Shown: one piece after another, positions 43-16,235 of the stretch
How positions within the stretch are numbered: the first letter of the stretch is position 1
Layout of the letters: each line of letters opens with the position of its first letter
NCBI GenBank assembly: GCA_001803565.1
Contig: MHDQ01000320.1
Coordinates: 1 to 24,347, forward strand
DNA: 24,347 nt
Direction of reading: 5' to 3'
Source: Nitrospinae bacterium RIFCSPLOWO2_12_FULL_45_22
Lineage (GTDB): Bacteria > 2-12-FULL-45-22
Position numbers and translations under genes: made by a program
The notes under the pieces: generated by a model
The model's input: the letters and a program-made list of their open reading frames with translations, nothing else
What the model was told of the DNA's origin: nothing
The model's database searches: none

Positions 43-112
43 GTAGCCGCAACCTTAAGGTTGCGCTATTTATGACAGATGAATTCATTCGCAGGCTAAA
101 GCCTGCGACTAC
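43..112. repeat. REP-like inverted pair (REPIN-like)
   Basis: Two hairpins face each other. The left has a GTAG head (43-46) followed by a perfect 18-bp palindrome at 48-65 (arm CGCAACCTT). The right is inverted: an 8-bp stem (90-97 with 100-107, arm CGCAGGCT) followed by CTAC at 109-112, the complement of GTAG. A GTAG tetranucleotide next to a short hairpin, in inverted pairs, is the layout of REP/REPIN elements mobilised by RAYT (TnpA-REP) proteins. No RAYT gene lies in the window, so the link is inference. Related single hairpins are at 5994, 7844 and 15925. Confidence 0.65.
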
Positions 113-177
113 AACAATTTTTATAAATTTACGCATAATTTGGTATTATAAGGGGCTAAAGTTTTATTGTAATCGTT

Positions 178-210
178 CACCACAGAGCACGCTGAGAACA
201 CAGAGAAAAG
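178..210. repeat. CACAGAG word-repeat arm
   Basis: Three degenerate copies of a roughly 9-bp word (CCACAGAG, CACGCTGAG, AACACAGAG) lie in a row. They resemble one arm of the larger word-built inverted repeats at 18051 and 21291. I do not see the opposite arm nearby, so this may be a decayed half element. Confidence 0.45.
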
Positions 211-483
211 ATTACTCTTGAAATTTATGTGCTAACCTTCGAATACCATCATTATAGAGCCTTGACATTGATCATTCGTCATAAAACATTGGGCAATGAA
301 CAATGATATAAAAAATTCATTTCCCACAAGGGGATATTTTTCATCCCCCCTTGATAAGGGTTATATCTCATTTTATATGACATTGCAAGACTTGACCCCA
401 TCTGCCCATATAACTTGCCTTCCGGATTCAATTCTGACAAAATATAGAAAACTTTATAATCAATTGTTAGGGATTAAAACTAT

Positions 484-864
484 ATGACAAGGAAAAATCC
501 GTTTGCCCAATATGAAGAGTGGGGAGAAGAAAAAGTGCGTCACCTTTTGGCTACAGGTAGAATTCAACCTGGAAGTGAGAGTCATAACAAAATGTCCTCA
601 TGGTTAAAATTATTGGATGATAAACGTACCGTAGTGCAGGCAGTACGGGCTGAAACACGGGAAGAAGAAACCCTTTCCATTTCTCGCAAAGCCTTACAAG
701 CTTCCGAAGAGGCTAATTCAATTGCATCAAAAGCGCGATTTGAGGCCCGCCAGGCAAATATTATAGCAATTATCGCTATGATATTAAGTGGGATTATAGC
801 TATCATTGCCACATCAGATAAGCTCATATTATTCCTCCAAGGGCTTGGAATCGTAAGCCTCTAA
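484..864 (+). CDS. Cassette-encoded small membrane-anchored protein
   Basis: A 126-residue protein that I cannot assign to a named family. The N-terminal half is charged and soluble-looking. Residues about 62-92 form an Ala/Glu/Arg-rich helix with repeated xxSxxAxxA spacing, probably a coiled coil. Residues about 92-121 are strongly hydrophobic (IAIIAMILSGIIAIIA), which fits one membrane anchor near the C terminus. The gene starts 11 bases after a GTTAGGG heptamer and its TAA stop lies inside the CTAAC box of the following attC, so it fills a complete cassette. A weak AGGG about ten bases upstream could serve as ribosome binding site. Small membrane proteins are common cassette cargo, and some in other integrons act in phage defence; nothing in this sequence shows that function. 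Confidence 0.75.
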   Translation: MTRKNPFAQYEEWGEEKVRHLLATGRIQPGSESHNKMSSWLKLLDDKRTVVQAVRAETREEETLSISRKALQASEEANSIASKARFEARQANIIAIIAMILSGIIAIIATSDKLILFLQGLGIVSL

Positions 865-907
865 CAAGTCATTGGAGCTGACGGCGAAACGTCGCAGCCC
901 GTTAGGA
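859..907 (+). other. attC-like recombination site, short type
   Basis: The left box CTCTAAC (859-865) pairs with the right box GTTAGGA (901-907) through the CTAAC/GTTAG core. Between them GGAGCTGACG and CGTCGCAGCC can pair over GG, CTG and ACG with bulged bases around a GCGAAA loop. Imperfect inner pairing with extrahelical bases is normal for attC. The stop codon of the upstream gene lies inside the left box, and the right box runs into the AGGAGG ribosome binding site of the next gene. It is shorter and less regular than the second site, so I am less sure of it. Confidence 0.65.
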
Positions 908-914
908 GGAAATC

Positions 915-1151
915 ATGACAAATGAAGAAATAAAACAGAAACTTGAAGCATCATTTCACCCCTATCGTTGTGTTGCTGAAATATGGGACTACCGTCAAAA
1001 AATACGGTTTCATATCTTTGATCAAAACGATAAACCCATAATTACAGCCCCAGAGATTGTAATACCTAAAATCAACCGTGAATCCTGGTTGTCTTCTCTT
1101 ATCAGACAAACTAAAGATGAAATTAAGAGAAAAAATTATTTTATTGATTAG
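915..1151 (+). CDS. Cassette-encoded small hypothetical protein
   Basis: A 78-residue soluble protein. It has an amphipathic N-terminal helix, then alternating hydrophobic and polar residues typical of beta strands (CVAEIWDYRQKIRFHIFD, residues about 19-36), then a basic C-terminal helix. I recall similar cassette proteins with an RCVAEIWDY-like core, but no function is known to me. The ribosome binding site AGGAGG overlaps the right end of attC 859-907, five to six bases before the ATG. The 3' end overlaps by 11 bases the 3' end of a gene on the opposite strand (1141-1371), so this cassette carries two convergent genes. Confidence 0.75.
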   Translation: MTNEEIKQKLEASFHPYRCVAEIWDYRQKIRFHIFDQNDKPIITAPEIVIPKINRESWLSSLIRQTKDEIKRKNYFID

Positions 1152-1371
1152 GCGTGTAACAACCGGCAATTATCTTTACTATGCAACCATTACTGGCCTT
1201 AAACCGCACGCATTCACCATCTACCTCAAATGGCGTTCCATCAATTTCTTTGGCGTTATCACGGGCGAGAGCGTCAGCATACTCACGTAGAGCTGTAGGA
1301 ACGGCATGGCAAAAAGCATCCTGCTCTTCTTGCAATCGTTCAACCATAATATTCAAAAGGCGGTAAATCAT
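1141..1371 (-). CDS. Cassette-encoded small protein on the opposite strand
   Basis: A 76-residue protein of unknown family. The N-terminal half is helical and acidic (VERLQEEQDAF), and the second half looks like a small beta structure containing two cysteines (residues about 50-70). The start is well supported: GGGGGTGA lies six bases before the ATG, an almost ideal match to the end of 16S rRNA. The gene points away from the attC at 1383-1442, opposite to the usual cassette orientation, and its 3' end overlaps the plus-strand gene 915-1151. Genes in this orientation need their own promoter; I could not pick one out inside the short gap. A convergent pair could be an addiction module, but neither protein resembles a toxin or antitoxin I know. 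Confidence 0.62.
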   Translation of the reverse strand: MIYRLLNIMVERLQEEQDAFCHAVPTALREYADALARDNAKEIDGTPFEVDGECVRFKASNGCIVKIIAGCYTPNQ

Positions 1372-1382
1372 AATTAATCACC

Positions 1383-1442
1383 CCCTAACCAGCGGCTGGA
1401 CTTGACCGGGGAAGCCCCGGCAAGTCAGCCGTTACGTTAGGC
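1383..1442 (+). other. attC recombination site, textbook form
   Basis: The left box CCCTAAC (1383-1389) and right box GTTAGGC (1436-1442) match the consensus core sites RYYYAAC and GTTRRRY closely. Inside, CGGCTG, CTTG and CCGGGG on the left pair with CCCCGG, CAAG and CAGCCG on the right. The left side carries extra GA and A and the right an extra T as unpaired bases, and the loop is only a few nucleotides. This is the folded single-strand structure recognised by IntI integrases. The site follows the start of the minus-strand gene 1141-1371 and precedes the remnant gene at 1459. Confidence 0.9.
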
Positions 1443-1458
1443 GTGACGTGAGGGCCTG

Positions 1459-1776
1459 ATGGAACATTTGTCAATGTCTATAGCGGAGGTAATGGCAGGT
1501 TTGGACTGGAGTGCTTGGGTGACCGCTTTGGCCACTCTTGTATTGGCCATCCTCACATTCGTGTACGTCAGGCTTACCAAAAAGATTCTTGATGCTCAAT
1601 CTGACCCCTGCGTTGTTCTTACCGTAGTGCACACGATGTGGCTATTTTCTGTCAGAAATCCATTAATAAGGGTAGCGGCAGAGATTGTCTCTACTTTCAT
1701 CCTCCAATGGCAAAGGCAAGCTTTGCAGCTACATTTGATCGGCATTGTTAACCCCGGATTCAGGGTTATTATATAA
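1459..1776 (+). pseudogene. Degraded cassette gene, N-terminal membrane segment
   Basis: The first 60 or so residues look normal: a hydrophobic segment at residues about 17-38 (WVTALATLVLAILTFVYV), then RLTKKILDAQSDPCVVLTVVH, the start I remember from small proteins with one N-terminal membrane anchor and a cytoplasmic beta domain. After about residue 58 the reading frame loses protein character. In the frame beginning at 1623 the sequence reads on as INKGSGRDCLYF and PPMAKASF, which fits the expected beta domain better and suggests a frameshift near 1630. That frame stops at about 1749. The gene begins 16 bases after the attC at 1383-1442; no attC follows it. Frameshift is my inference from family memory, so an intact short variant is possible. 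Confidence 0.5.
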
Positions 1777-1779
1777 GCT

Positions 1780-1805
1780 TTATGACAAAGAATAGCCACA
1801 CCCAA
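1780..1805 (+). repeat. 26-nt dispersed repeat, copy 1
   Basis: Twenty-six bases here (core AGAATAGCCACACCCAA) recur at 6093-6118 on the same strand with one mismatch. Both copies lie between genes, here just after the decayed cassette and there ahead of the GT9 gene. No hairpin is evident. Origin unknown; it could be the end of a lost mobile element. Confidence 0.6.
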
Positions 1806-1824
1806 TTAATTTTAATGAAATGAT

Positions 1825-1845
1825 CTGATATGTTCTGATTATCAG
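1825..1845 (+). promoter_or_regulatory. Palindrome upstream of AbrB-like gene, candidate operator
   Basis: CTGATA and TATCAG form a perfect inverted repeat with a 9-base spacer, ending four bases before the GGGAGG ribosome binding site (1850-1855) of the gene at 1864. AbrB/MazE-type proteins commonly bind inverted repeats at their own promoters, so this is a plausible autoregulatory operator. That role is inference from position. Confidence 0.4.
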
Positions 1846-1863
1846 CATCGGGAGGAATAAATT

Positions 1864-2061
1864 ATGGAGGAATATACCACAGTACCCAGGCTTGTGCGGG
1901 TAAGAGCGCGGGGTCAACTCACGATCCCCCAGGAGATGAGGGAGGCATTAGAGCTTGATGAGCATACGGGTCTCAATATCCTTCGGGTTGGCAAGGTATT
2001 GCTTATGACTCCAAAGCGATTGCAACGGGCCTCGCTGGCCGCAGAAGTGGAGCGGGAGTAG
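1864..2061 (+). CDS. Orphan AbrB/SpoVT-family DNA-binding protein
   Basis: A 65-residue protein with the swapped-hairpin AbrB fold signature: VRVRARGQLTIPQEMREALEL (residues about 11-31) followed by the GLNILRVGKVLLMTPKR strand pair (residues about 36-52). This domain is found in MazE/VapB-type antitoxins and in small transition-state regulators. It dimerises and binds DNA through the first hairpin. The start is set by GGGAGG eight bases upstream. Normally the antitoxin gene is followed by a toxin gene (PIN or MazF); here the next 50 bases hold none and the next gene lies on the other strand. It is therefore either a solitary regulator or an antitoxin that has lost its partner. An inverted repeat just upstream may be its operator. 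Confidence 0.85.
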   Translation: MEEYTTVPRLVRVRARGQLTIPQEMREALELDEHTGLNILRVGKVLLMTPKRLQRASLAAEVERE

Positions 2062-2115
2062 CTTTTTTGGTTCTTTTCTGGTTACACAGCGTGTGCACCG
2101 GATTCAGGAGGTTAG

Positions 2116-2844
2116 TCAATTAATGGGTAGGTCAATGATAAAAGAAGTTCCTTTGCCCACTTGACTTTCAACCTGTATATTACCGGAATGATTTAGTATT
2201 ATGCCATAAGTAGCAGTGAGGCCTAATCCTGTACCTTCGCCCAGGCGTTTAGTAGTAAAAAATGGATCAAATATTTTATCTATGTTTTTTCCTTTAATCC
2301 CTACACCCGTATCCTTAATTATCACCCGGATACTATTATTGTGGGGTTCAGTCTTAATATAAAGCCTTCCCCCGCCAGGCATAGCATCCTTAGCATTATT
2401 AAATAAGTTTAAGAAGGCTTCCATTATCTGGTTGCGGTTGCATTTAATTGCTGGTATCTCTGGATAATATTTTTTTATTATTCTAACATTCTTAAAATGT
2501 TCAAGGGTTTCTACCTGAGAAGCGGTTGCGTCTAGAATAGAATTGATGTTTAGTGATGATTTTTCCTTTCTCTCATCCACCGTACGGACAAAATTCAAAA
2601 AATTATTAACAATCTCTTTGATGCGATTTGCACTATTCATCATGGATTTTAAACACACCAGCATTTCATTATCCAGTTTTTCCTCTGACATTAGCAACAG
2701 TTGGAGATAATTACTGATGCAGCACAAGGGGTTATTGATCTCATGAGCGATACCTGCCCCTAGTTCACCTAAAGCTAGCATCTTTTCTGCGTGAACTAAC
2801 TGCTTGTGGGTCTCCTTATCAACAACGAAATTTTTCTTCTTCAT
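2116..2844 (-). CDS. Soluble histidine kinase (HisKA-HATPase)
   Basis: A 242-residue sensor kinase core. The dimerisation and phosphoacceptor helix has the H box at His34 (GIAHEINNP). The ATP-binding domain follows, with the N box around Asn150 (NNAKDAM), the G1 box at Asp178 (DTGVGI), an F box (FDPFFTTK) and the G2 box (GTGLGL). There is no membrane segment and almost nothing ahead of the H box (33 residues), so the protein lacks its own sensor domain and must receive its input through a partner. It is the last gene of a three-gene unit with a response regulator and a STAS-like protein, which suggests the three act together. The HEINNP box and GEGTGLGL motif resemble NtrB-like kinases. The ribosome binding site is weak (GAGAAAAG). 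Confidence 0.93.
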   Translation of the reverse strand: MKKKNFVVDKETHKQLVHAEKMLALGELGAGIAHEINNPLCCISNYLQLLLMSEEKLDNEMLVCLKSMMNSANRIKEIVNNFLNFVRTVDERKEKSSLNINSILDATASQVETLEHFKNVRIIKKYYPEIPAIKCNRNQIMEAFLNLFNNAKDAMPGGGRLYIKTEPHNNSIRVIIKDTGVGIKGKNIDKIFDPFFTTKRLGEGTGLGLTATYGIILNHSGNIQVESQVGKGTSFIIDLPIN

Positions 2845-2959
2845 ATCTTTTCTCTACCCGTTTTGGGCCTATCTATTATCCCGACTTTGGTAGTCTAGCT
2901 CATCATGAATTTCGGATAGACTATAGTGTATACCCCCAGTAAATCTTGGATCTCTCCTC

Positions 2960-3364
2960 TTAGTCAAACCTTACATCCCATTTCCCAAATGATGCCCTCT
3001 CATCAAGCATTCTTGGGCCAAAGAAACCTATCTCTTTTCTAAGATTGAAAATTTCCATCTGTTCCAATAATCTGGGGTCCAGATTTATAACGTTGATACT
3101 TCCCTTCTGATTAATCTTTGTCATTTCGTAGTAAGCATCATATAAGAGTTCAAAAATGTTAAAGTTTATCTTGTCAAGAAATGCCCCATTGATAATAATA
3201 TTCTTTTTCCCTTTTCTAATCGGCTCCATCAAGATTTCTTTGAACTCAAATATATTATTGCCATTTATCTCTCCTTCCCAATTGACAAATTCTATGGTGG
3301 AAAGGTCATTCACTAAGAAGGGTCTTATTAGGCACTTTTTATATTCCCGGCCCTCTATTACCAC
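2960..3364 (-). CDS. Degenerate STAS-like protein
   Basis: A 134-residue protein whose residues about 20-110 follow the STAS (anti-sigma antagonist, SpoIIAA-like) pattern: GEINGNNIFEFKEILM, then KKNIIINGAFLDKINF, ending in INVINLDPRLLEQMEIF. In active STAS antagonists the segment IDSxGLGxLxxAY carries the phosphorylated Ser. Aligned here it reads INFNIFELLYDAY, so Asp, Ser and the Gly residues are all replaced and phosphorylation at this site is unlikely. It probably acts as a binding or scaffold module for the flanking kinase and regulator; that is inference. The start used is a GTG with AAAGGA six bases upstream. The frame stays open a further 72 bases, to the stop of the upstream regulator, and that extension (with two cysteines) also reads like protein but has no standard start codon. 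Confidence 0.72.
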   Translation of the reverse strand: MVIEGREYKKCLIRPFLVNDLSTIEFVNWEGEINGNNIFEFKEILMEPIRKGKKNIIINGAFLDKINFNIFELLYDAYYEMTKINQKGSINVINLDPRLLEQMEIFNLRKEIGFFGPRMLDERASFGKWDVRFD

Positions 3365-3436
3365 CCAATTTCCTTTATAACCGCATCTGTCTTTCTTTAA
3401 GCAATAATATCCTCCGTGATATACCTGAGCAAAGAG

Positions 3437-4237
3437 TCAGCGCGATACAGATTCTGGTTTGTTCTTAAGATTTTGCCTCTCTTGCTCAACTCTTTCTTTA
3501 CTTTCTTCCAGACATCTTTCAATTACCTGCTCTATTTTATTTGGGCTATCCCCAAAAAGAATGCAGTCATCCGCACCGTAAGCAAAAAGCATGTCTCTAA
3601 TTTGATCAAACTCTGACTCATCAGCAACTATAACAATAGGATATCCCTCTCTACCTTTCTTTTTATTTCTCTCCAATAATTTGGGTGCCAATGGGTTATT
3701 TATTTCGATTAAGATTACATCCGGAGCCTCTTCTGAAATCTTCTTTAGCATTTGGTTTAAATTATCTTCTTTTCCTGAATAGAGACTGATTTGATAGGTT
3801 GATAATTGATCTTTGAGTCTGTTAAAGAGTGTTTGAGAAGCCAACAGTAATTTCTTTTTCTCATCCTCAATTTCTTTATTTTGGGTTAGTCTTTCAATAA
3901 GTAATTTCACATCCCCCGGATTATAAGGTTTTTTAAGGTAGTCTACTGCCCCATATTTTTTTGCATTAAGGAGAGTATCTATGCCTGGATAACCTGTTAC
4001 CATTATAGTCTTAACCTGAGGGGAGCGCTCCCTCAATCTCCGCAAAAAATCAATACCATTCATCTGTGGCATCATAATGTCAGTAATGACTATCTCCGTA
4101 TCCTCAGTTATTTTCTCTAACCCTTCCTGGGCACTGATTGCCGTTACAGTACAAAACCCTTCCTTCTGTAAGTATTCGCTAAGAGAAACCGCTATACTAG
4201 AGTCATCGTCAACTATTAAAATATTCTTATTACCCAA
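3437..4237 (-). CDS. Response regulator with receiver plus degenerate second receiver domain
   Basis: A 266-residue regulator. Residues 4-120 are a complete receiver domain: acidic pocket DDD at 10-12, phosphoacceptor Asp53 (TDIMMP), Thr81 (VTGYPG) and Lys103 (LKKPY). A helix of about 20 residues links it to a second alpha/beta domain (about 150-245) whose strands VILIEIN, IVIVADES and DDCILFGDS mimic a receiver. Its expected phospho-Asp position falls in EINN, so it is probably not phosphorylated. No DNA-binding or enzymatic output domain follows; the tail is a charged helix. The protein likely signals through protein contacts with the STAS-like protein and kinase downstream. It starts with TTG, supported by a run of six G ending seven bases upstream. 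It is the first gene of the minus-strand unit. Confidence 0.9.
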   Translation of the reverse strand: MGNKNILIVDDDSSIAVSLSEYLQKEGFCTVTAISAQEGLEKITEDTEIVITDIMMPQMNGIDFLRRLRERSPQVKTIMVTGYPGIDTLLNAKKYGAVDYLKKPYNPGDVKLLIERLTQNKEIEDEKKKLLLASQTLFNRLKDQLSTYQISLYSGKEDNLNQMLKKISEEAPDVILIEINNPLAPKLLERNKKKGREGYPIVIVADESEFDQIRDMLFAYGADDCILFGDSPNKIEQVIERCLEESKERVEQERQNLKNKPESVSR

Positions 4238-4637
4238 GGAATATCCCCCCTCTAGGATTTATTTACCCCGATACCATTAAACCCTTATTCTTGAGGTTTT
4301 CTAATGGGTACATTAATTTAATATCTCTTTTAGGGATCATCTTGAAATTTGTAGGTAACTACCAGACACCAAGGAGACAAAAACCCATAATTTATAATCG
4401 GCATTTCTCTCCAATAAATTTAGGGAAATAATTCCCATTACATTAAAAATCCCCTCAAGGAGTGCCTACCAGTAATTAGGACTAGGCATCGGCGCGGAAA
4501 TCAGTATAATATCTGAGTAAGCCTTCCCGTAGAGACTTGGTTACTGGTCATTGGTTAATAATTAATGACTGATGACTATTTATTCTCGGCGCTTTGTAGC
4601 GCATAATTTATGATAACCTATCAGGTAGGAGGAAGAG
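4238..4637. other. 400-bp divergent intergenic region
   Basis: No gene is visible between the divergently read response regulator and CAP-protein genes. A perfect TATAAT lies at 4505-4510 inside the near-palindrome TCAGTATAATATCTGA, about 128 bases ahead of the CAP gene, but I find no good -35 box 16-18 bases upstream of it. At 4540-4577 there are inverted words of the GTCATTGG / TTAATGAC kind, related in style to the octamer array at 9831. The CAP gene's ribosome binding site AGGAGGAAG falls at the right end. Confidence 0.5.
4505..4510 (+). promoter_or_regulatory. Possible -10 box for the CAP-protein gene
   Basis: An exact TATAAT lies within the near-palindromic TCAGTATAATATCTGA. No recognisable TTGACA-like box lies at the right distance, so the promoter would be weak or activator dependent. 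The alternative is chance in AT-rich DNA. Confidence 0.28.
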
Positions 4638-5978
4638 ATGGCTAGATTAAAAACAACTAGAGTGGTTTTGGGCTTATTTTTGTTACCTTTAACCTTCTTT
4701 TTTAGCGAGGCTTTTGCCGAATATGGCGATCCGACGGCAGAAGAGCAATATATGCTGGAGCTGATAAATAGGGCCCGGGCCAACCCCGCCGAGGAGGGAC
4801 AACGCTTCGCATATACCAATGATACTGACGTACAGAATGCTATAAATTATTTTGCGGTCAATATATCTACCATGATAGCCGAATTTAATTCTTATCCTAC
4901 CCATCCGCCGCTGACCTTTGACAAGAGGTTAATAGATATGGCCCGCTTTCATTCGGACGATATGCTAAAGTATAATTACCAGGGGCATACTGGCTCAGGG
5001 GGTGATACCCTGACTGATCGGCTCAAGCTTTTTGGCTACGATTATTCATCTGCTGCGGAAAACGTTTATGCCTATGCAAAATCTCTCTTTTATGGCCATG
5101 CAGGATTCATGGTAGACTGGGGAGTTCCCGATTTAGGACACAGGAAGAACCTCCTTGAATTTACTAAAACTGGTAGCATACACAAGGAAATCGGCATCGG
5201 TATTGTCCATACAGTTACTTCCTCGACCTTCAAAAATCTTTTAAAATTCCAACCCCCGGGTATTTTTCTCCAGGCAACCGTGGGCCCCATAATTATAACC
5301 GAGAACTTTGCCCTATCTCGCTCGATGACCCAGGGCCCTTCTCTTCTAGGGGTAATATATGACGATAAAAATGGCAATAATTTCTATGATATCGGTGAAG
5401 GTCTAAAGGGTGTCACGGTAGAATCGGATAATGGTCAATCTACCACTACTTCCACTAGCGGTGGGTATTCTATGGAAATAACCTCTCCCGGTAGTTATAT
5501 AGTAAAAGCCACAGGTGGCGGATTATCATATCCCCTTACCAAAACTGTCGAGATAGCCGATAAGAATGTTAAAGTAGATTTTCTAGCTTCAGAATCTCAG
5601 GCTAATACATTACTATCCTTATCCTTATCTAAAAGCGCATATTTGGTCGGTGAAGCTGTAACCCTGTATGTGAGTGTGTATCCCGGGATAGATATTGAGA
5701 GCGCCGATGTATATCTAGTATTGGTCTATCCAGATATAAGCTTTAGGAGCGTGACAGATATTGATGGTTCATTAGGGGAACAGAATAAGGCCGTTGCCCT
5801 GGCTAAATCCTGGCCTGTTACTGCGGTTTCTGCCTATCCCCTGTTCCAGAAGACTTTCCAGCTTACGGATCAGAAGGGGAAATATCAGTTATTCCTTATC
5901 CTGGTTAAACCAGGCGCTGATCCTTTAAATATCTTTAACTGGCTGACCTATAAGGATGTCAGTTTTTCGCTACAATAA
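4638..5978 (+). CDS. Secreted CAP-domain (SCP/PR-1, YkwD-type) protein
   Basis: A 446-residue exported protein. A signal peptide occupies residues 1-27, with basic start, hydrophobic core and a cleavage site AFA|E. Residues about 33-215 form the CAP domain, with ELINRARANP near the start and the two histidines of the CAP pocket at His105 (ARFHSDDM) and His168 (LGHRKNLLE). Residues about 235-320 look like a prealbumin-like Cna-B/SdrD-B domain beginning GVIYDDKNGNNFYD, whose Asp/Asn spacing suggests a calcium loop. The last 115 residues form a further beta-rich domain (SLSKSAYLVGEAVTLYVSV). No LPXTG or other anchor is seen, so it is likely released or held in the periplasm or at the surface. 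The start has AGGAGG eight bases upstream. Bacterial CAP proteins have no single agreed function; adhesion or binding roles are likely given the beta domains. Confidence 0.88.
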   Translation: MARLKTTRVVLGLFLLPLTFFFSEAFAEYGDPTAEEQYMLELINRARANPAEEGQRFAYTNDTDVQNAINYFAVNISTMIAEFNSYPTHPPLTFDKRLIDMARFHSDDMLKYNYQGHTGSGGDTLTDRLKLFGYDYSSAAENVYAYAKSLFYGHAGFMVDWGVPDLGHRKNLLEFTKTGSIHKEIGIGIVHTVTSSTFKNLLKFQPPGIFLQATVGPIIITENFALSRSMTQGPSLLGVIYDDKNGNNFYDIGEGLKGVTVESDNGQSTTTSTSGGYSMEITSPGSYIVKATGGGLSYPLTKTVEIADKNVKVDFLASESQANTLLSLSLSKSAYLVGEAVTLYVSVYPGIDIESADVYLVLVYPDISFRSVTDIDGSLGEQNKAVALAKSWPVTAVSAYPLFQKTFQLTDQKGKYQLFLILVKPGADPLNIFNWLTYKDVSFSLQ

Positions 5979-5993
5979 AAATGCTCCTTTTTT

Positions 5994-6022
5994 GTAGTGG
6001 CAGAGCTTGCTCTGCTAGGAAT
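5994..6022 (+). repeat. REP-like hairpin with GTAG head
   Basis: GTAG (5994-5997) is followed by a perfect 7-bp stem GCAGAGC/GCTCTGC with a TT loop and then the tail AGGAAT (6017-6022). It lies 15 bases after the CAP gene stop. The same head, stem layout and tail occur at 7844 and, with one change in the head, at 15925, with different stem bases that still pair. Confidence 0.7.
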
Positions 6023-6092
6023 GTTGAGCAGGCCTTCGGGCTGAGGCCATCTAGGCCGAAGCGTGAACATTACAAATTATATTAGCTAGACG

Positions 6093-6118
6093 TTATGATA
6101 AAGAATAGCCACACCCAA
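6093..6118 (+). repeat. 26-nt dispersed repeat, copy 2
   Basis: This copy matches 1780-1805 except for one C-to-T difference. It lies about 80 bases before the GT9 gene. Confidence 0.6.
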
Positions 6119-6200
6119 ATTATTTGAAGAGAGTCTATTTTTACCCGGATGATTATCCCGGGCCCTATCGCTCCCTTTTAAAGCCTTTAATGGATTGGTA

Positions 6201-7847
6201 ATGCCTCTCACATACCCGGCCAAGCAGCCTCACCTGGCGGTTATCCAACTAGGCCGCCTAGGGGATATGATACAATCCACGTTGGCCCTCAAGGCATTAC
6301 GCCAGCAAAACCCCGCTGCTCACCTCAGCCTGATCGCCTTTAAACCCTTTGTCAAGGTATTGGCCCACTGGCCGGTCATTGATGAGGTTATTACCCTTGA
6401 TCAATCTGAATGGTCTTACCTGACCGAGCCTAATGCCTGGGATAGTGCTACCTATGCCCCGGTAGTCAATGCCTTTGCCAAGAAATTAAATAAATTTGAT
6501 CGGGTCTACAATCTAACTTTTAACGAGCTTGCCTCTTATCTGGCTTACTCCCTCGCTAAGCCTAACCAGGTAACGGGCTTTACCCTGGATGATGTAGGAA
6601 ACTTTGTCTGTGCTAGCGATTGGGGACAATACCTGACAGCAAGTTTGGACTTTCGTTTACTTAATCCCTTTAATCTCGTGGACCTTTTTGTCTTGATGGT
6701 GCAGGGGTACCCCTTCTCTGGTACGCTGCATGTATCTAGCAGTAATATAGACCAAGCATCAACCTTGCTCCCAGCCAATTGCGATGATACTATCATGATC
6801 GCCTTGCAATGTGGCGCCAGTAGAAACCAGCGTTGCTGGCCCCTAGAACAGTTTGCCTCCTTAGCCAATATCCTGACCGATCATCCCAGGGTGCGGCTCG
6901 TATTTGTGGGTACAGAGGACGAAGGACCCCTTGTAGCTCAGATTATCTTATTGATGAAGGACAAACAGCGGGCCATCAATCTGACTGGCCAAACTCAGCT
7001 TAGCCAACTGGCCGATGTCATCAGGCAGGTGCGCCTTGTGGTGGGTAACGATACCGGTACGATGCATCTAGCCGCCGCAGTAGGCACTCCTACAGTGACC
7101 ATCTTTTTGGATTATGCCCATTTCTGGGAGACTGGACCGTATGGTTTTGATCATCTGGTCCTACAGGCCGCTCCACCCCAATATCCTTCCCAGGCAACCA
7201 TTTGGGGTCAATCATCCAGCCAGATTAGTACCACCGCGGTAGCCATCTGCATAAGTCAGTTAGTACCAGAATTGCAATCGCTAACCATAAGTAGCCCAAA
7301 TAATCAGTTGCCCTGTTATCGCTCACGCCACCTCTGGGGGCAATTAGATTATGTCCCTATTGATTCGGGAGCTGGGGCGTTGGATGATGCCTTACGGCTT
7401 ATTTATCGCTGGGTATGGCTTTCGGCCCTTTGCCCGCCAGACCAATTTACTATACCGTTAGATACTTTAATAGAGACTTTACCGCAAAGTTTTATCCTGA
7501 CCGCTGAAATCTTTGCAGGTCTTTGGCAGACCAGGACAAAGGCCCAAAAGGTCTCGCGGGAATTAGAGCGTTTTCAAGAAATAGTGGCTTCTTGTGAGCA
7601 GGGGGGGCAAAATTGGGTATTTACCTCTCTGGGCATATCACTACCTCAACCACTAGGGCCTATCTTGCAGGAATGGGAAAAAGATATCCAGTCAAAAGTA
7701 AGGCCCATCACAAGTTTTTTGCTATGGCAAATGCGAAACCATCTCGCTACCGGCCTTCCTGAAACCATCAGTAGTTATCTTAGTAATATCCAAACCGCCA
7801 GCCGCGCAACCCAGGCATTAATCAAGGCCCTAGATAAAATATTGTAG
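6201..7847 (+). CDS. Glycosyltransferase family 9 (heptosyltransferase-like) with long C-terminal extension
   Basis: The first 350 residues follow the ADP-heptose:LPS heptosyltransferase fold (WaaC/WaaF type). The N-terminal signature IQLGRLGDMIQSTLAL (residues about 15-30) and the nucleotide-sugar site VVGNDTGTMHLAAAVGTP (about Asn283) are clear, and QCGASRNQRCWPLEQF sits at the domain junction as in the family. The enzyme should transfer a sugar to a cell-envelope glycan or lipopolysaccharide core at the inner face of the membrane. Family members are usually about 350 residues; this one has about 200 more, mostly helical, with no recognised domain. I take the ATG at 6201 as start; an in-frame TTG at 6195 is the alternative, and neither has a strong ribosome binding site. 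Its TAG stop forms part of the GTAG head of the hairpin at 7844. Confidence 0.88.
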   Translation: MPLTYPAKQPHLAVIQLGRLGDMIQSTLALKALRQQNPAAHLSLIAFKPFVKVLAHWPVIDEVITLDQSEWSYLTEPNAWDSATYAPVVNAFAKKLNKFDRVYNLTFNELASYLAYSLAKPNQVTGFTLDDVGNFVCASDWGQYLTASLDFRLLNPFNLVDLFVLMVQGYPFSGTLHVSSSNIDQASTLLPANCDDTIMIALQCGASRNQRCWPLEQFASLANILTDHPRVRLVFVGTEDEGPLVAQIILLMKDKQRAINLTGQTQLSQLADVIRQVRLVVGNDTGTMHLAAAVGTPTVTIFLDYAHFWETGPYGFDHLVLQAAPPQYPSQATIWGQSSSQISTTAVAICISQLVPELQSLTISSPNNQLPCYRSRHLWGQLDYVPIDSGAGALDDALRLIYRWVWLSALCPPDQFTIPLDTLIETLPQSFILTAEIFAGLWQTRTKAQKVSRELERFQEIVASCEQGGQNWVFTSLGISLPQPLGPILQEWEKDIQSKVRPITSFLLWQMRNHLATGLPETISSYLSNIQTASRATQALIKALDKIL

Positions 7848-7872
7848 ACACGGATTCATCCGTGCCAGGAAT
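7844..7872 (+). repeat. REP-like hairpin with GTAG head, overlapping a stop codon
   Basis: GTAG (7844-7847, of which TAG is the stop codon of the GT9 gene) is followed by a 7-bp stem CACGGAT/ATCCGTG (7849-7864) and the tail AGGAAT (7867-7872). It shares head and tail with the element at 5994 but has an entirely different stem. It could also slow transcription after the GT9 gene; no T-run follows. Confidence 0.65.
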
Positions 7873-7972
7873 AGCAAGAATAGAGTATTGCTCCCCAAAA
7901 ATCTCTTGGATTTTACGCTTAATTCAGATAAGATTAAAAAAAGAAAAACCGTGCACCACGACACTAAGCATC

Positions 7973-8031
7973 AGTAAGGAGTAATGAGTTAGCAGTAACG
8001 GCTTACGGCTCACTCCTTACTCCTCACTCAT
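7973..8031. repeat. Word-built inverted repeat (GTAAGGAG words)
   Basis: AGTAAGGAGTAATGAG on the left is opposed by CTCACTCCTTACT and further CTCACT words on the right, with ACGGCTTACGGCT between. It ends 17 bases before the start codon of the CoA-transferase gene. The word GTAAGGAGTGAG appears again at 19368-19380. Confidence 0.6.
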
Positions 8032-8048
8032 AACCCCAGGAGGCAGGG

Positions 8049-9824
8049 ATGGATAAGAGACTAGAGGAGTTGGTTGATAGTACTTTCAAGTTAAAGGATA
8101 TGGAAGGGCCGGATAAAGTGACCAGTCTTTCAGAGGCTATTAGACGCTATATAAAGCCGGGGATGGCGCTCCATATCGGTATTGATGCCAATGCCGCTAT
8201 TTGTGAGCTCATTAGACAATATTGGGGTACTAATCCCGGATTCACCTATATATCTAGCATGATCATAAACCATGGGCTAAATCTTATCCATGCTGGCTTG
8301 GTGAATAAGGTAATCACCTCTAATAGCTCGGATATATACCCTACCCCTAGTCCTAGCCGCATCATCCAACGAGCATATAAAGCTAAGACAATTGAGTTTG
8401 AAAATTGGTCCCTCTACAGTCACCTCCAACGCTTAATGGCAGCGGCCCTGGGTCTTGAGTTCCTACCCACTCGCTCTATTATAGGTAGTAGTATGGCGGA
8501 GGAGAATAAAGATAGCTTTAAGCTGTTAGAGGACCCCTTTGGCAGTGGCAAGAGAGTGGGCATAGTAAAGGCCCTTATGCCTGATGTTTCGATAGTGCAT
8601 GTATTAGCCGCAGATAGATATGGTAATGCCATACCGGTGCCCCCATACCTGGCCGAGACCGCCTGGGGCGTAAAAGCTAGCCGGCATGGGGCGATATTGA
8701 CAACGGAAAAGCTGGTCTCTACCGACTTTATAAGAAAACATTCACTTCTGGTAAAGATCCCTGGTTATATGGTTAATGCAGTAGTTATTACACCCTTTGG
8801 GGCCCATCCTGGCGGTCTGATTAATCGCTGCCTACCCGAGGTAGAGCCCTATGCCGATGATGATGATTTCATTAGCCCGTATCGCAAAGCTACTGAAGCG
8901 CCACATACCCTGGACAAATGGCTAAAAGAGTGGGTCCTGGATTGCCCGACGCACGATGATTATCTTACTAAATTGGGCCATCAGCGGCTTATGTTGCTCA
9001 AAGGAAAAGCCCAAGAAGATACCTGGCAATATCGCTTGAATCTCCTGGCGAAGGATATTTCCCTGGAAGAGAAATATAACCCGGCTGAAATGATGGTAAT
9101 AGCGGCTGCTCGCTTAATGCTGGACAAGATCCTCAAGAATAATTATAAAACTATACTTACAGGCGTAGGGGTATCAGCCCTAGCAGCTTGGTTAGCCAGT
9201 TATCAACTAAAAAAGAGAGGGTATGATATAGAGCTGGTTATTGGATCGGGGGCTTTTGGCCACTCGCCCCGCCCTGGTAACGTTGATCTCAATAATTATT
9301 CTAACATTATGACTTGTAAGATGATCAGTGATACTCTGGATATATATGGGGTCATGGTAGGGGGGGCAAAGAACAACTGTTTAGGGGCCCTGGGAGCGGG
9401 CCAGATTGATAAGTGGGGTAATATCAATTCCACGAGAGTATCAGATGATCTTTTCCTTGTCGGCGCTGGTGGGGGAAACGATGTTGCTAGCGGGGCACGG
9501 GAGATAGTGGTAGCAGCCCACCAATCAGCTAAACGCTTTGTAGAAAAGGTACCTTATATAAGCATGCCTGGTGAGAGGGTAAAGACCCTGGTATCAACCC
9601 TGGGTGTTATGGAAAAATTGGGTGATGATAAAGAATTTACTTTAACGCAATACCTGTCAACACCGGAACCTTTAACCCCAGAGCAAAGGATAAAGAAGAT
9701 AAAAGAGAATTGCGGGTGGGAGCTAAAAATATCTTCTAACACCCACGGAGTTCCAGTCCCTACCGTTGAAGAATTATTAACCCTTAGACTGCTGGACCCC
9801 AAGAAGGAATTTATTGGCCCGTAA
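8049..9824 (+). CDS. Fused A+B family I CoA-transferase-like protein, catalytic Glu replaced
   Basis: A 591-residue protein joining both halves of a glutaconate-type (family I) CoA-transferase. The A half (residues about 20-310) has PGMALHIGIDANA, GSSMAEEN and the strand-loop VLAADRYGNAIPVPPYLAE. The B half (about 345-560) has NNCLGALGAGQIDKWGNINS and GAGGGNDVASGA (Asn477), the CoA-site loop. Family members carry a Glu in an ExG motif that forms the glutamyl-CoA intermediate. The paralogue at 16236 has MAEMG there (Glu400); this protein has VIGSG with Gly399. It may therefore be a hydrolase or lyase like IpdAB, which lacks that Glu, or a non-catalytic partner; I cannot tell. The substrate is unknown. 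The start ATG has AGGAGG (8039-8044) five bases upstream. Confidence 0.88.
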   Translation: MDKRLEELVDSTFKLKDMEGPDKVTSLSEAIRRYIKPGMALHIGIDANAAICELIRQYWGTNPGFTYISSMIINHGLNLIHAGLVNKVITSNSSDIYPTPSPSRIIQRAYKAKTIEFENWSLYSHLQRLMAAALGLEFLPTRSIIGSSMAEENKDSFKLLEDPFGSGKRVGIVKALMPDVSIVHVLAADRYGNAIPVPPYLAETAWGVKASRHGAILTTEKLVSTDFIRKHSLLVKIPGYMVNAVVITPFGAHPGGLINRCLPEVEPYADDDDFISPYRKATEAPHTLDKWLKEWVLDCPTHDDYLTKLGHQRLMLLKGKAQEDTWQYRLNLLAKDISLEEKYNPAEMMVIAAARLMLDKILKNNYKTILTGVGVSALAAWLASYQLKKRGYDIELVIGSGAFGHSPRPGNVDLNNYSNIMTCKMISDTLDIYGVMVGGAKNNCLGALGAGQIDKWGNINSTRVSDDLFLVGAGGGNDVASGAREIVVAAHQSAKRFVEKVPYISMPGERVKTLVSTLGVMEKLGDDKEFTLTQYLSTPEPLTPEQRIKKIKENCGWELKISSNTHGVPVPTVEELLTLRLLDPKKEFIGP

Positions 9825-9830
9825 ACCCCA

Positions 9831-9934
9831 GGTCATTAGGTGATTAGGTTATTAGGTTATTGGGTTATTAGGTGACTAAGTGACCAGGTCATTAGGTAAT
9901 TACGTAATGACCCAATAACCTAATAACCCAATGA
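9831..9934. repeat. Octamer array folding back on itself (GGTNATTA)
   Basis: Thirteen consecutive 8-base units run without a break of phase. The first nine read GGTCATTA, GGTGATTA, GGTTATTA and close variants. The last four (CGTAATGA, CCCAATAA, CCTAATAA, CCCAATGA) are the same word in reverse complement. The whole can fold into a long hairpin. It fills the gap between the CoA-transferase stop and the ribosome binding site of the truncated copy at 9955. Confidence 0.85.
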
Positions 9935-9954
9935 CGCAAATTGAGGAGAAGGTA

Positions 9955-10077
9955 ATGATAGAGGGCAGGGATTTTCTGGAAGCAAGATTTCGCCTTCAGG
10001 AACATGAAGGGCCGGACAAGTCTTCTGCTAAACCCAAATATAATGACCCCTTTCCAGCAAGGCTCGACCATGTATAA
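9955..10077 (+). pseudogene. 5' stub of a third CoA-transferase gene
   Basis: A strong ribosome binding site (GAGGAG, 9943-9948) precedes an ATG and 22 codons that match the start of the CoA-transferase at 16236: residues LEARFRLQEHEGPDK are identical. Over 9976-10020 the DNA agrees with 16257-16301 at 42 of 45 positions, and all three differences are silent. After codon 22 the match stops abruptly and 18 unrelated codons follow to a TAA at 10075-10077. That stop overlaps the probable ATG of the next gene (10070) by eight bases, so ribosomes finishing the stub could restart on the glycosyltransferase gene. The stub is therefore dead as an enzyme but may serve as a translated leader. The rest of the gene is not found in this window. 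Confidence 0.85.
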
Positions 10078-10816
10078 TCAAAAGATAGGGATTTCAGTGG
10101 TTTTCCCCTCTTTTAATGAGGAAGAAAATATTGAGAGGGCTGTAAGGGCTACAACCGACGTATTGGAGTTAATAGTTAGCGATTATGAAATAATTATCGT
10201 TAATGATGCCAGCACGGATGCCACAGGGGATATCGCCGAGAGTTTAGCAGAAAAGAACGGGAAAATATCCGTAATTCACCACAAAAAAAATAAAAAACTA
10301 GGCGGGGCATTAAAAACAGGTTTCGCAAAGGCAAGTAAGGAGCTGGTCTTATATTCTGATGTTGATCTCCCCTTTGATTTTATGGAGGTATCTAAAGCCC
10401 TAAGGATAATGGAATATACCGGTGCTGATATTGTCTCAGCATACAGGCATGATAGGATCTCAGAAGGGGTCAAGCGGGCGGTATATTCTTATATTTATAA
10501 CGCAATGGTAAGACTCCTTTTCGGGCTAAGGGTCAGAGATATAAACTTTTCTTTTAAGCTCTTTAAACGAAATATCCTGGATAGGATAGAGCTTGTTTCC
10601 AATGGTTCTTTTATAGATGCTGAATTGCTGATTAAGAGTCAAAAAAATGGTTTTCAGATTGTTCAGATGGGCGTGGATTTTTTCCCCAGACTGAGAGGAA
10701 GTTCAACCCTCTCAAGTCCATCGGTCATCTTTAACATCTTAAGCGATATGCTCGCCTTGCTCTTCCAATATAAGTTTAAGAGATTCCTCGGGCCAGAGAA
10801 TAATGAAAGAGGCTGA
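10070..10816 (+). CDS. Family 2 glycosyltransferase, dolichol-phosphate-mannose synthase-like
   Basis: A 248-residue GT-A enzyme. ISVVFPSFNEEENIERAV opens the nucleotide-binding domain, Asp46 lies in VNDASTDAT and Asp97/Asp99 form the DVD metal site (YSDVDLPFDF). The later INFSFKLFKR and DAELLIKSQKNGF segments match DPM1/polyprenyl-phosphate glycosyltransferases. Likely role: loading a sugar onto a lipid carrier at the membrane, which a GT-C enzyme such as the one at 13074 could then use. No membrane segment is obvious. I choose the ATG at 10070, just before MYNQKIG, because the longer frame back to 10004 is the CoA-transferase stub read out of frame; an ATG at 10043 is possible. Its 3' end overlaps the next gene by 14 bases. 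Confidence 0.88.
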   Translation: MYNQKIGISVVFPSFNEEENIERAVRATTDVLELIVSDYEIIIVNDASTDATGDIAESLAEKNGKISVIHHKKNKKLGGALKTGFAKASKELVLYSDVDLPFDFMEVSKALRIMEYTGADIVSAYRHDRISEGVKRAVYSYIYNAMVRLLFGLRVRDINFSFKLFKRNILDRIELVSNGSFIDAELLIKSQKNGFQIVQMGVDFFPRLRGSSTLSSPSVIFNILSDMLALLFQYKFKRFLGPENNERG

Positions 10817-11549
10817 ATATTACCGAAATTTCGAATATGAGGAGAAAAACTGGTGGTTTATTGGGATGAGGAGTATATATCAGGGATTACTAGATCTTTT
10901 TATAAATATAAATATGGAGATGCCCAAAAAATTGTTGGATACTGGCTGTGGAACTGGAGGTATGCTCCGGTATCTTAAGAAATATGGTTTTGTAATCGGG
11001 TCTGATGTTTCTATGACAGCTTTAGAATTCTGTAGAAAAAGGGGGGAGACCCATCTGGTTTTGTCAAATTCCCTCCGATTGCCCTTTCAGAACAATTCTC
11101 TTGACGTTATTACCGCCTTTGGCGTGATAGAACATCTGGATGACGATACCACAATGTTAAAGGAATTGTACCGGGTTTGCAAGCCTGAAGGGAGGTTATT
11201 TATCCTAACCTCTGCGTTCCAATTTCTATGGAGTTATCATGACGATGCTAACGAGCATAAGAGGAGATATACCAGGGGCGGTCTTTCTGACAGAGTTGGG
11301 CAGTCAGGTTTTAGAATAGAAAAGATCTGTTATGTAAATACATTTCTTTTCCCCGTGATACTCCTTATAAGGTTGATTCAAAAGATATTCTATAATAATA
11401 GGAAATTAGATAAAGTTAAGCGGGATATAATAACCCCCCCTTTTGGTATAAACAAACTGTTAACCTATATCCTGCAACTAGAAGCCCGGTTGCTAAGGAG
11501 AAGGGATCTCCCTTTCGGTGTCTCTCTAATCTGCGTTGCCCAGAAATGA
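10803..11549 (+). CDS. Class I SAM-dependent methyltransferase
   Basis: A 248-residue protein with the Rossmann-type SAM site LLDTGCGTGG (residues about 41-50), an acidic strand end (IGSDVS) and the post-IV motif AFGVIEHLDDDTTMLKELYRV typical of Methyltransf_11. The N-terminal YRNFEYEEKNWWFIGMR and the SAFQFLWSYHDDANEHKRRY segment are common in methyltransferases of glycan and O-antigen clusters. The substrate is unknown; a sugar or lipid-linked intermediate is likely from the neighbours. It overlaps the GT2 gene by 14 bases and the next gene by four (ATGA), so the block is translationally coupled. Confidence 0.9.
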   Translation: MKEAEYYRNFEYEEKNWWFIGMRSIYQGLLDLFININMEMPKKLLDTGCGTGGMLRYLKKYGFVIGSDVSMTALEFCRKRGETHLVLSNSLRLPFQNNSLDVITAFGVIEHLDDDTTMLKELYRVCKPEGRLFILTSAFQFLWSYHDDANEHKRRYTRGGLSDRVGQSGFRIEKICYVNTFLFPVILLIRLIQKIFYNNRKLDKVKRDIITPPFGINKLLTYILQLEARLLRRRDLPFGVSLICVAQK

Positions 11550-12205
11550 TCTCAGGAAAAGAGGCCCTAAGAAAATTATTAAATATCTATGCGAAATGTC
11601 CCTTATTTTCTAAGCTGCATATTTGGGTTAGGTTTAAATCCTGTCCTTTTCTTGAACTGATAAAATATATTCCCGAAGATGGTAAAATATTAGACCTAGG
11701 TTGTGGCTATGGGCTCTTTACCTGCCTCTTACATTTGACCTCACCCGGTCGCAATATAATCGGTATTGATCTCGACAGGAAAAAACTGGGGATCGCTATA
11801 AAAGTAACTACCAACTGTTCAGAGAAAATATCATTTCGTATGGGTGATATATGTGAAATTGGTGAAAACGATCTTGACTGTATCACAATTATTGATGTGT
11901 TATACTTGATTCCCTTCGAGCGCTGGGAGCTGATATTTGAAAACTGTTTTAACAGATTGAAACCTAATGGGCTTCTTTTGATAAAGGAGATGGGTAAGAA
12001 ACCTTCATGGAAATATATTTGGAACTTAATCCAGGAGACCTTATCAGTTAAGATCTTCAATATTACCGAAGGTAATTCTTTTTACTTCAAAACCCCTTTG
12101 GAGCTGGGTGAGGATTTACGCAGAATTGGTTTTAAGGTCACAAGGCTCGATCTTAACAAAAGGTATGCCCACCCCCACTTTCTCTATCTTTGCCGAAAAG
12201 GTTAA
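11546..12205 (+). CDS. Second class I SAM-dependent methyltransferase
   Basis: A 219-residue protein with SAM-binding motif ILDLGCGYGLF (residues about 48-58), acidic motif IGIDLDRKK and a later IIDVLYLIPFERW strand and helix. It resembles small lipid or polyprenyl methyltransferases but the substrate cannot be read from the sequence. It differs clearly from the methyltransferase just upstream, so this is not a tandem duplicate. It begins with the ATGA overlap of the preceding gene and ends four bases before the deacetylase gene. Confidence 0.85.
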   Translation: MISGKEALRKLLNIYAKCPLFSKLHIWVRFKSCPFLELIKYIPEDGKILDLGCGYGLFTCLLHLTSPGRNIIGIDLDRKKLGIAIKVTTNCSEKISFRMGDICEIGENDLDCITIIDVLYLIPFERWELIFENCFNRLKPNGLLLIKEMGKKPSWKYIWNLIQETLSVKIFNITEGNSFYFKTPLELGEDLRRIGFKVTRLDLNKRYAHPHFLYLCRKG

Positions 12206-12209
12206 GAAG

Positions 12210-13070
12210 ATGCACAAACCATCGGTGAAACGGTTAATAGTCACTGCAGACGACTTTGGACTGACTAAAGGTATAAACCAGGGGATATTCGAAGCCTTTA
12301 GTAAAGGTATAGTAACTAATACCACACTGATAGTAAATGGTCGTGCCTACGATCATGCCCTAGACCTGGCTAAAACGAACCCTGGCCTGCCCCTGGGAAT
12401 ACACTTAACCCTTATGGAGGAAAGAGCGGTTTTAAGTAATAAAGAAATACCTACTTTAGTCCAAAAGGATTCTTTTCTGCCCAGGAACTATCGCCAGCTT
12501 ATATTGAATTTATTCTCAAAAAAAATAAGATTACCTGAGATCGAGGCAGAGTTTAAAGCCCAAATAGATAAGTTTCTGGCTAGTGGGATAAAACCGACTC
12601 ACATTGATAGCCATCAGCATATCCACATGCTACCAAGCATCTTCAATATCGTAGTAAAGCTGGCCAGGGAATATGGAGTAAAAAATATAAGGTTCCCGTA
12701 TGAAAAGAGGGTGGTTCACAAAGGCTATATTCTTAGTACTCACAATCTAAACCGGGCCATTCTGAAGTACATTTGTTCTAAGGCAAAACAAAAGATAAAA
12801 CAAAATGGTATCATTACTACTGACTACTATTATGGTTTTTTAAGGAGTGGAGCCCTTTCGGTTAAGGCATTAAAAGAGATTTTGCTGGCCTTAGACTATG
12901 GAACGACCGAGCTCAACTGTCATCCCGGTTATATTGATCAGGAATGCGTTAAATATTATTCTCACTGGAATTATCATTGGGAAGAGGAATTAAAAGCCCT
13001 GACAAATGATGAGATCAAAGGTTTAATTACAAAGGACAATATTCAATTGATAAGTTATAAAGACCGATGA
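12210..13070 (+). CDS. YdjC/ChbG-family carbohydrate deacetylase
   Basis: A 286-residue protein. TADDFGLT (Asp14, Asp15) gives the metal-binding and catalytic Asp pair near the N terminus, LGIHLTL carries a metal His, HIDSHQHIH (His131-His139) the central His motif, and NCHPGY the C-terminal one. The family removes N-acetyl groups from sugars such as diacetylchitobiose, or from glycans built on lipid carriers; in this glycan block the second is more likely. The start is taken at the ATG with AAAAGG eight bases upstream, giving MHKPSVKRLIVTADDFG. A longer frame running back to 12108 merely overlaps the methyltransferase gene. The stop lies three bases from the convergent stop of the GT-C gene. 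Confidence 0.92.
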   Translation: MHKPSVKRLIVTADDFGLTKGINQGIFEAFSKGIVTNTTLIVNGRAYDHALDLAKTNPGLPLGIHLTLMEERAVLSNKEIPTLVQKDSFLPRNYRQLILNLFSKKIRLPEIEAEFKAQIDKFLASGIKPTHIDSHQHIHMLPSIFNIVVKLAREYGVKNIRFPYEKRVVHKGYILSTHNLNRAILKYICSKAKQKIKQNGIITTDYYYGFLRSGALSVKALKEILLALDYGTTELNCHPGYIDQECVKYYSHWNYHWEEELKALTNDEIKGLITKDNIQLISYKDR

Positions 13071-16060: not shown

Positions 16061-16235
16061 TTGACTATCCTCTTTAAGGGAAAATTCATAAACTTTCGGT
16101 TCATAAAGTACCATAAAAATTTGTGAGAGAAATCTTTTCCCATCAATTAATAGGATGGACACCCGGCTATACGAGTGGTGTTCCAACCCCGCAAAAATAT
16201 TTTCTTAAAAGACTTTGTTACCCTGGGAGAATAGC

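Follow-up and report, generated by a model that had tools for sequence, protein, structure and literature searches.

Integrons are bacterial gene-collecting systems, and the locus described here raises the question of whether a run of short genes belongs to one when no integrase is in view. The window, meaning the whole stretch of DNA analysed, is the entire contig C320 (24,347 bp, starting at base 1) of G000, a draft MAG of 3.67 Mb in 321 contigs and 85% complete. The order of G000 includes one other listed genome (G001) and the remaining listed relatives match at the domain level only, so the lineage is non-proteobacterial. An earlier note on this DNA had suspected as much, and had taken the neighbouring genes for ordinary chromosome, which agrees with the rest of the window (a histidine kinase, a response regulator, a CAP-domain protein and others). 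The window also holds two similar genes of ~595 aa (8049-9824 and 16215-18020), which resemble CoA-transferase-type paralogues.

Our reading, to which we give a probability of about 0.92, is that 466-1640 is a fragment of an integron cassette array, eroding and without an integrase, on the chromosome of a deep-branching bacterium. Of its cassettes, two would remain together with the start of a third, with the following features (basis in brackets).

1-253, no strand: repeat-rich flank left of the array (DNA search of G000)
466-472, plus strand: R' box GTTAGGG of a preceding site, attI or a lost attC (sequence)
467-901, plus strand: cassette 1, G^TT to G^TT (box positions)
484-864, plus strand: cassette-1 gene, 126 aa, stop inside R'' (ORF; phage relatives)
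859-907, plus strand: damaged attC (fold, covariance models R1 and R2, left-arm matrix)
859-865 and 901-907, plus strand: R'' CTCTAAC and R' of the damaged attC, with L'' arm intact and L' arm truncated (sequence)
902-1436, plus strand: cassette 2 (box positions)
915-1151, plus strand: cassette-2 ORF, 78 aa, no relative found (ORF, searches)
1141-1371, minus strand: cassette-2 ORF, 76 aa, one relative at 45% identity (protein searches)
1383-1442, plus strand: intact attC (fold, R1 and R2)
1383-1389 and 1436-1442, plus strand: R'' CCCTAAC and R' GTTAGGC of the intact attC (sequence)
1393-1404 and 1421-1431, plus strand: L'' and L' of the intact attC (sequence, fold)
1437-1636, plus strand: start of cassette 3, interrupted, without a downstream attC (ORF, repeat search, R2)
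1459-1636, plus strand: 5' part of the cassette-3 membrane-protein ORF (ORF)
1637-1800, no strand: MITE-like element, 164 bp, 22-bp inverted ends (DNA search of G000)

An Rfam scan at gathering thresholds found nothing, and we therefore built our own covariance models with the window left out of both training sets. R1 was trained on 11 attC belonging to IntI loci in named genomes other than G000, plus four from G000's own IntI contig, and R2 on 21 attC, all of the former origin and none from G000. As a positive control, R1 matches fell on the expected cassette-array strand in 119 of 121 cases (80 IntI loci); 11 of 15 other genomes had no attC match at all. Both models have their only clear match in the window at 1383-1442 on the plus strand (R1, 44.1 bits, E 1e-8; R2, 33.4 bits, E 2.3e-6), where the minus strand reaches only 9 bits. 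The stem pairs 1393-1397 with 1427-1431 and 1399-1404 with 1421-1426, leaving G1398 and A1405 extrahelical, and their position in the left arm gives the cassettes a plus orientation. Folded as DNA, the site has a z of -6.5, and none of 200 shuffles was equally stable. Thus, 1383-1442 is an attC, and the consensus boxes, paired inner stem and unpaired bases that the earlier note described there are borne out by the fold and by both models, whose failure it had named as grounds for rejecting its claim. A strict box pattern applied across the whole of G000 matched this site only, and thereby understates the number of attC.

The earlier note had named model matches at both sites, the second a shorter attC-like one, as support for its claim. 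At 859-907, both models fail (about 12 bits, E about 0.4) and the fold is no better than that of shuffles (z -1.3), and we considered a coincidental hairpin because of the failed models. This was ruled out by a left-arm matrix of the first 27 bases, built from 44 other attC of G000 with 2 Mb of sequence as the null. Position 859 ranks first in the window (26.9 bits) and 1383 second (26.2 bits), the third-ranked position scores only 10.6, and nothing in the null reaches either of the two. The left arm of 859-907 fits the 44 other attC as well as those of intact sites do, and its right side lacks the expected complement to the outer part of that arm, so that paired L'' and L' arms are absent. 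The boxes RYYYAAC and GTTRRRY are paired at both sites, with the outermost base deviating in each, and the stop codon TAA (862-864) falls within R'' as the earlier note had seen. Since the left-arm matrix ranks 859 first with no equal in the null, 859-907 is a real attC in which deletion has removed roughly 10-12 bases and with them the greater part of the L' arm. It should be a poor recombination substrate, and 1383-1442 should be the sole site here that remains a good substrate for IntI acting in trans. Within cassette 2, GATTAGGCGTGTAACAACCGG at 1146-1166 resembles joined R' and R'' boxes and is possibly a further decayed recombination site.

The genes are placed as cassette genes would be. 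There are three GTTRRRY boxes in 466-1640 (at 466, 901 and 1436), each followed by a short ORF (ATG at 484, 915 and 1459), and those at 901 and 1436 close the hairpin-like sites. The box at 466-472, which the earlier note overlooked, forms the left edge of cassette 1; no hairpin was seen to its left, and the box is all that was observed of a possible attI. Cassette genes typically start closely after a recombination-site box, and those at 484-864 and 915-1151 begin 11 and 7 bases past theirs. Cassettes 1 and 2 each have a short gene fitted between two recombination points.

The genes had been described as short ORFans, which fits 915-1151 but not 484-864 and 1141-1371, as both of the latter have relatives. 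The cassette-1 protein, with a soluble N-terminal part and a hydrophobic C-terminal segment, has relatives of 66-67% amino acid identity in two IMG/VR phage contigs. No relative of the cassette-1 gene, the cassette-3 ORF or the 1141-1371 ORF was found in 385 other genomes, and none was found for the products of 915-1151 and 1459-1636; tblastn searches in plasmids with the cassette-1 and cassette-3 proteins returned nothing. None of the cassette genes could be reliably assigned to a family in Pfam, NCBIfam, PADLOC or PHROGs (SLATT and AbiEi matches, E 0.019, were not used).

The ORF of cassette 3 is interrupted at 1637 by the MITE, whose family (~125-195 bp, ends TGTGGCTATT) has many copies across G000, including on C141, C189, C270, C176 and C196. 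In the left flank, 28-123 and 170-253 are in part repeated elsewhere in the genome, on other contigs. In a genome so full of repeats, with one MITE within the region itself, the sites might be copies of a scattered hairpin element (REP or MITE) with only a likeness to attC, but we regard this as very improbable indeed. A DNA search of G000 found no copy of 466-1636 elsewhere, and the sites are diverse (pairwise identity among attC of G000: median 57%, maximum 79%) yet retain R' and R'' together with covarying arms. The covariation of the arms across 35 sites is 0.379 against a shuffled mean of 0.119 and at most 0.099 for slid versions, in an alignment that was fitted to the structure. Moreover, G000 holds at least 40 attC (40 at E<=0.01, on 23 contigs), many of them in arrays and some adjoining IntI.

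As the earlier note had stated, neither site has a recombinase nearby: no integrase was found in the window (1-24,347), and intI is thus not adjacent to the array as in a complete integron. This absence would be an assembly effect if the array were the distal end of an integron, or a piece of one separated by a contig break, with IntI just left of base 1. The first R' box stands 465 bases into the contig, which has no sequence beyond base 1 for the leftward IntI search that the earlier note proposed, and integrons are known to break draft assemblies (PMC9024848). However, the canonical layout puts the start of intI in or near bases 1-465, which hold no trace of IntI, and the left flank is repeat-rich; we consider a neighbouring IntI unlikely.

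Elsewhere in G000, C243 (467 bits) and C304 (439 bits) each carry a full-length IntI gene, and other contigs hold several IntI remnants (e.g., C115, C136, C95, C317, C7 and C287). C304, which is mostly cassettes, carries an intact integron at 90-5809 with six attC and IntI, the latter in a frame open for 461 aa with an N-terminal extension of ~140 aa ahead of the usual IntI. The region C243:1188-4164 holds the second intact IntI, together with an attC at 3426-3484 and a cassette resembling a HigB/HigA-type toxin-antitoxin; beyond ~4400, C243 has a much higher G+C. The remnants at C136:20148-20653 and C317:8631-9136 both lack an internal part (about residues 125-268), which suggests one deleted IntI form that was duplicated. 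The tetranucleotide match to the window is 0.89, 0.94 and 0.91 for the remnant contigs C136, C7 and C287, and 0.58 and 0.62 for the two intact-IntI contigs as compared to 0.8-0.95 for most attC contigs; because of this weaker match, the intact-IntI contigs could be mis-binned. In the tree, the IntI of C243 and C304 fall in separate clades. Their neighbours are a Desulfobacterales protein and that of HGW-Deltaproteobacteria-15, and the IntI of G001 is sister to neither of them. This suggests horizontal acquisition and loss on more than one occasion.

The model match, the damaged second attC, the cassette-like gene bounds, and the arrays and IntI elsewhere in G000 uphold the view of integron-type cassettes with attC sites. 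By the known mechanism, the bottom strand of attC would form a hairpin that is bound by the integron integrase and cut at G^TTRRRY. The cassettes would have been inserted by IntI from a nearby attI, since lost, or in trans from other integrons of G000. The array would now be largely frozen, with its middle attC lacking the L' arm, a MITE-split cassette 3 lacking attC, and no adjacent IntI.

The closest relative of cassette 1 (66% amino acid identity) lies between two attC in a 24-kb phage contig, IMGVR_UViG_3300025030_000416 (L168), which encodes a portal, a major head protein, a large terminase and replication genes. It has ten attC on a single strand in two groups (4178-6663 and 10750-12806), and no IntI was seen in it by tblastn. 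The array (4178-12806), found in three metagenomes, is flanked by an HTH/terminase-like gene on one side and the large terminase on the other. A chimera is unlikely because contigs from two other metagenomes repeat the array at ~99.9% over the parts covered. In the phage, a GTTAGGG box also precedes the cassette-1 homologue, ~10 bases from its start, and the attC after that homologue is 90% identical to 1383-1442, above any pair of attC within G000. A 318-bp stretch inside a phage cassette is 99.7% identical to C304, the IntI contig, and C261 matches the phage exactly over 87 bp that include an attC. In another contig (L176), the same attC stem as at 1383-1442 stands behind a different gene, so the gene paired with this hairpin differs among cassette 2 of the window, the phage homologue of cassette 1 and L176. 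This indicates cassette-like turnover, not the lone hairpin scattered among unrelated genes that the earlier note had named as a refutation.

With the closest relatives of both cassette 1 and the intact attC in a phage array, the cassettes may have arrived in the window with a phage, by integration or homologous recombination, instead of through IntI. The window has no phage structural genes, its flanks hold no sequence of this phage, and the pairing of genes with attC differs between the two, so that we judge such an arrival improbable, and prefer an eroded array built by IntI. The near-identical cassette DNA and the cassette family and attC common to both sides nevertheless suggest an exchange of cassettes between phage and this or a related bacterium, within one community or between communities that are linked. 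Beyond cassette DNA, a DNA search of the phage against G000 gave one match (73%), to a terminase/HTH-like gene on C222, which is no proof of host. More tentatively, and with considerable doubt on our part, phages of this community may be regular carriers that pick up cassettes via a host IntI, keep them in integrase-less arrays, and deliver them to the integrase-poor chromosomal arrays of a deep-branching lineage with its own integrons undergoing repeated gain and loss. Cassette DNA shared by a bacterial integron and a phage, both uncultivated, makes a concrete case in which phage-borne exchange is testable.

The window array belongs to a known system, as a degraded and no longer intact remnant without integrase (CALIN/SALIN). 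CALINs, which are at least two close attC without IntI, have been proposed to be degraded integrons (IntegronFinder 2.0, PMC9024848). Like them and the single attC without integrase of that study, the window has short genes bounded by attC and no adjacent IntI; in contrast, only one of its two sites is intact and its lineage is poorly sampled. With one clear match and one damaged site (E about 0.4), only one site passes the covariance model, and under the two-site rule of IntegronFinder the locus would count as a single attC and not as a CALIN. Integrons of archaeal MAGs (PMC9668308) resemble those of G000 in having arrays over many contigs, mostly without IntI, whereas G000 combines two intact IntI with several remnants in one genome. 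The integron integrase of HGW-Deltaproteobacteria-15 (L025) is 75% identical to the IntI of C304 and its sister in the tree, but comes from a different lineage, which indicates horizontal transfer of the integron. Phage CALINs, whose attC sites are active with IntI1 (Qi et al. 2023, PMC9892861), are like the array in L168 an IntI-less run of cassettes inside a phage; L168 differs in being uncultivated, in its ten attC, and in sharing near-identical cassette DNA with the MAG of a candidate lineage. The kind of system is therefore already known, since published examples exist of CALINs, of integrons in MAGs and of attC arrays in phages (PMC9024848, PMC9668308, PMC9892861). As far as can be told, what is new is the lineage, together with the concrete connection to a phage. 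The locus brings to the map of integrons a deep, sparsely sampled lineage in which a single genome has acquired several integrons and seen them decay.
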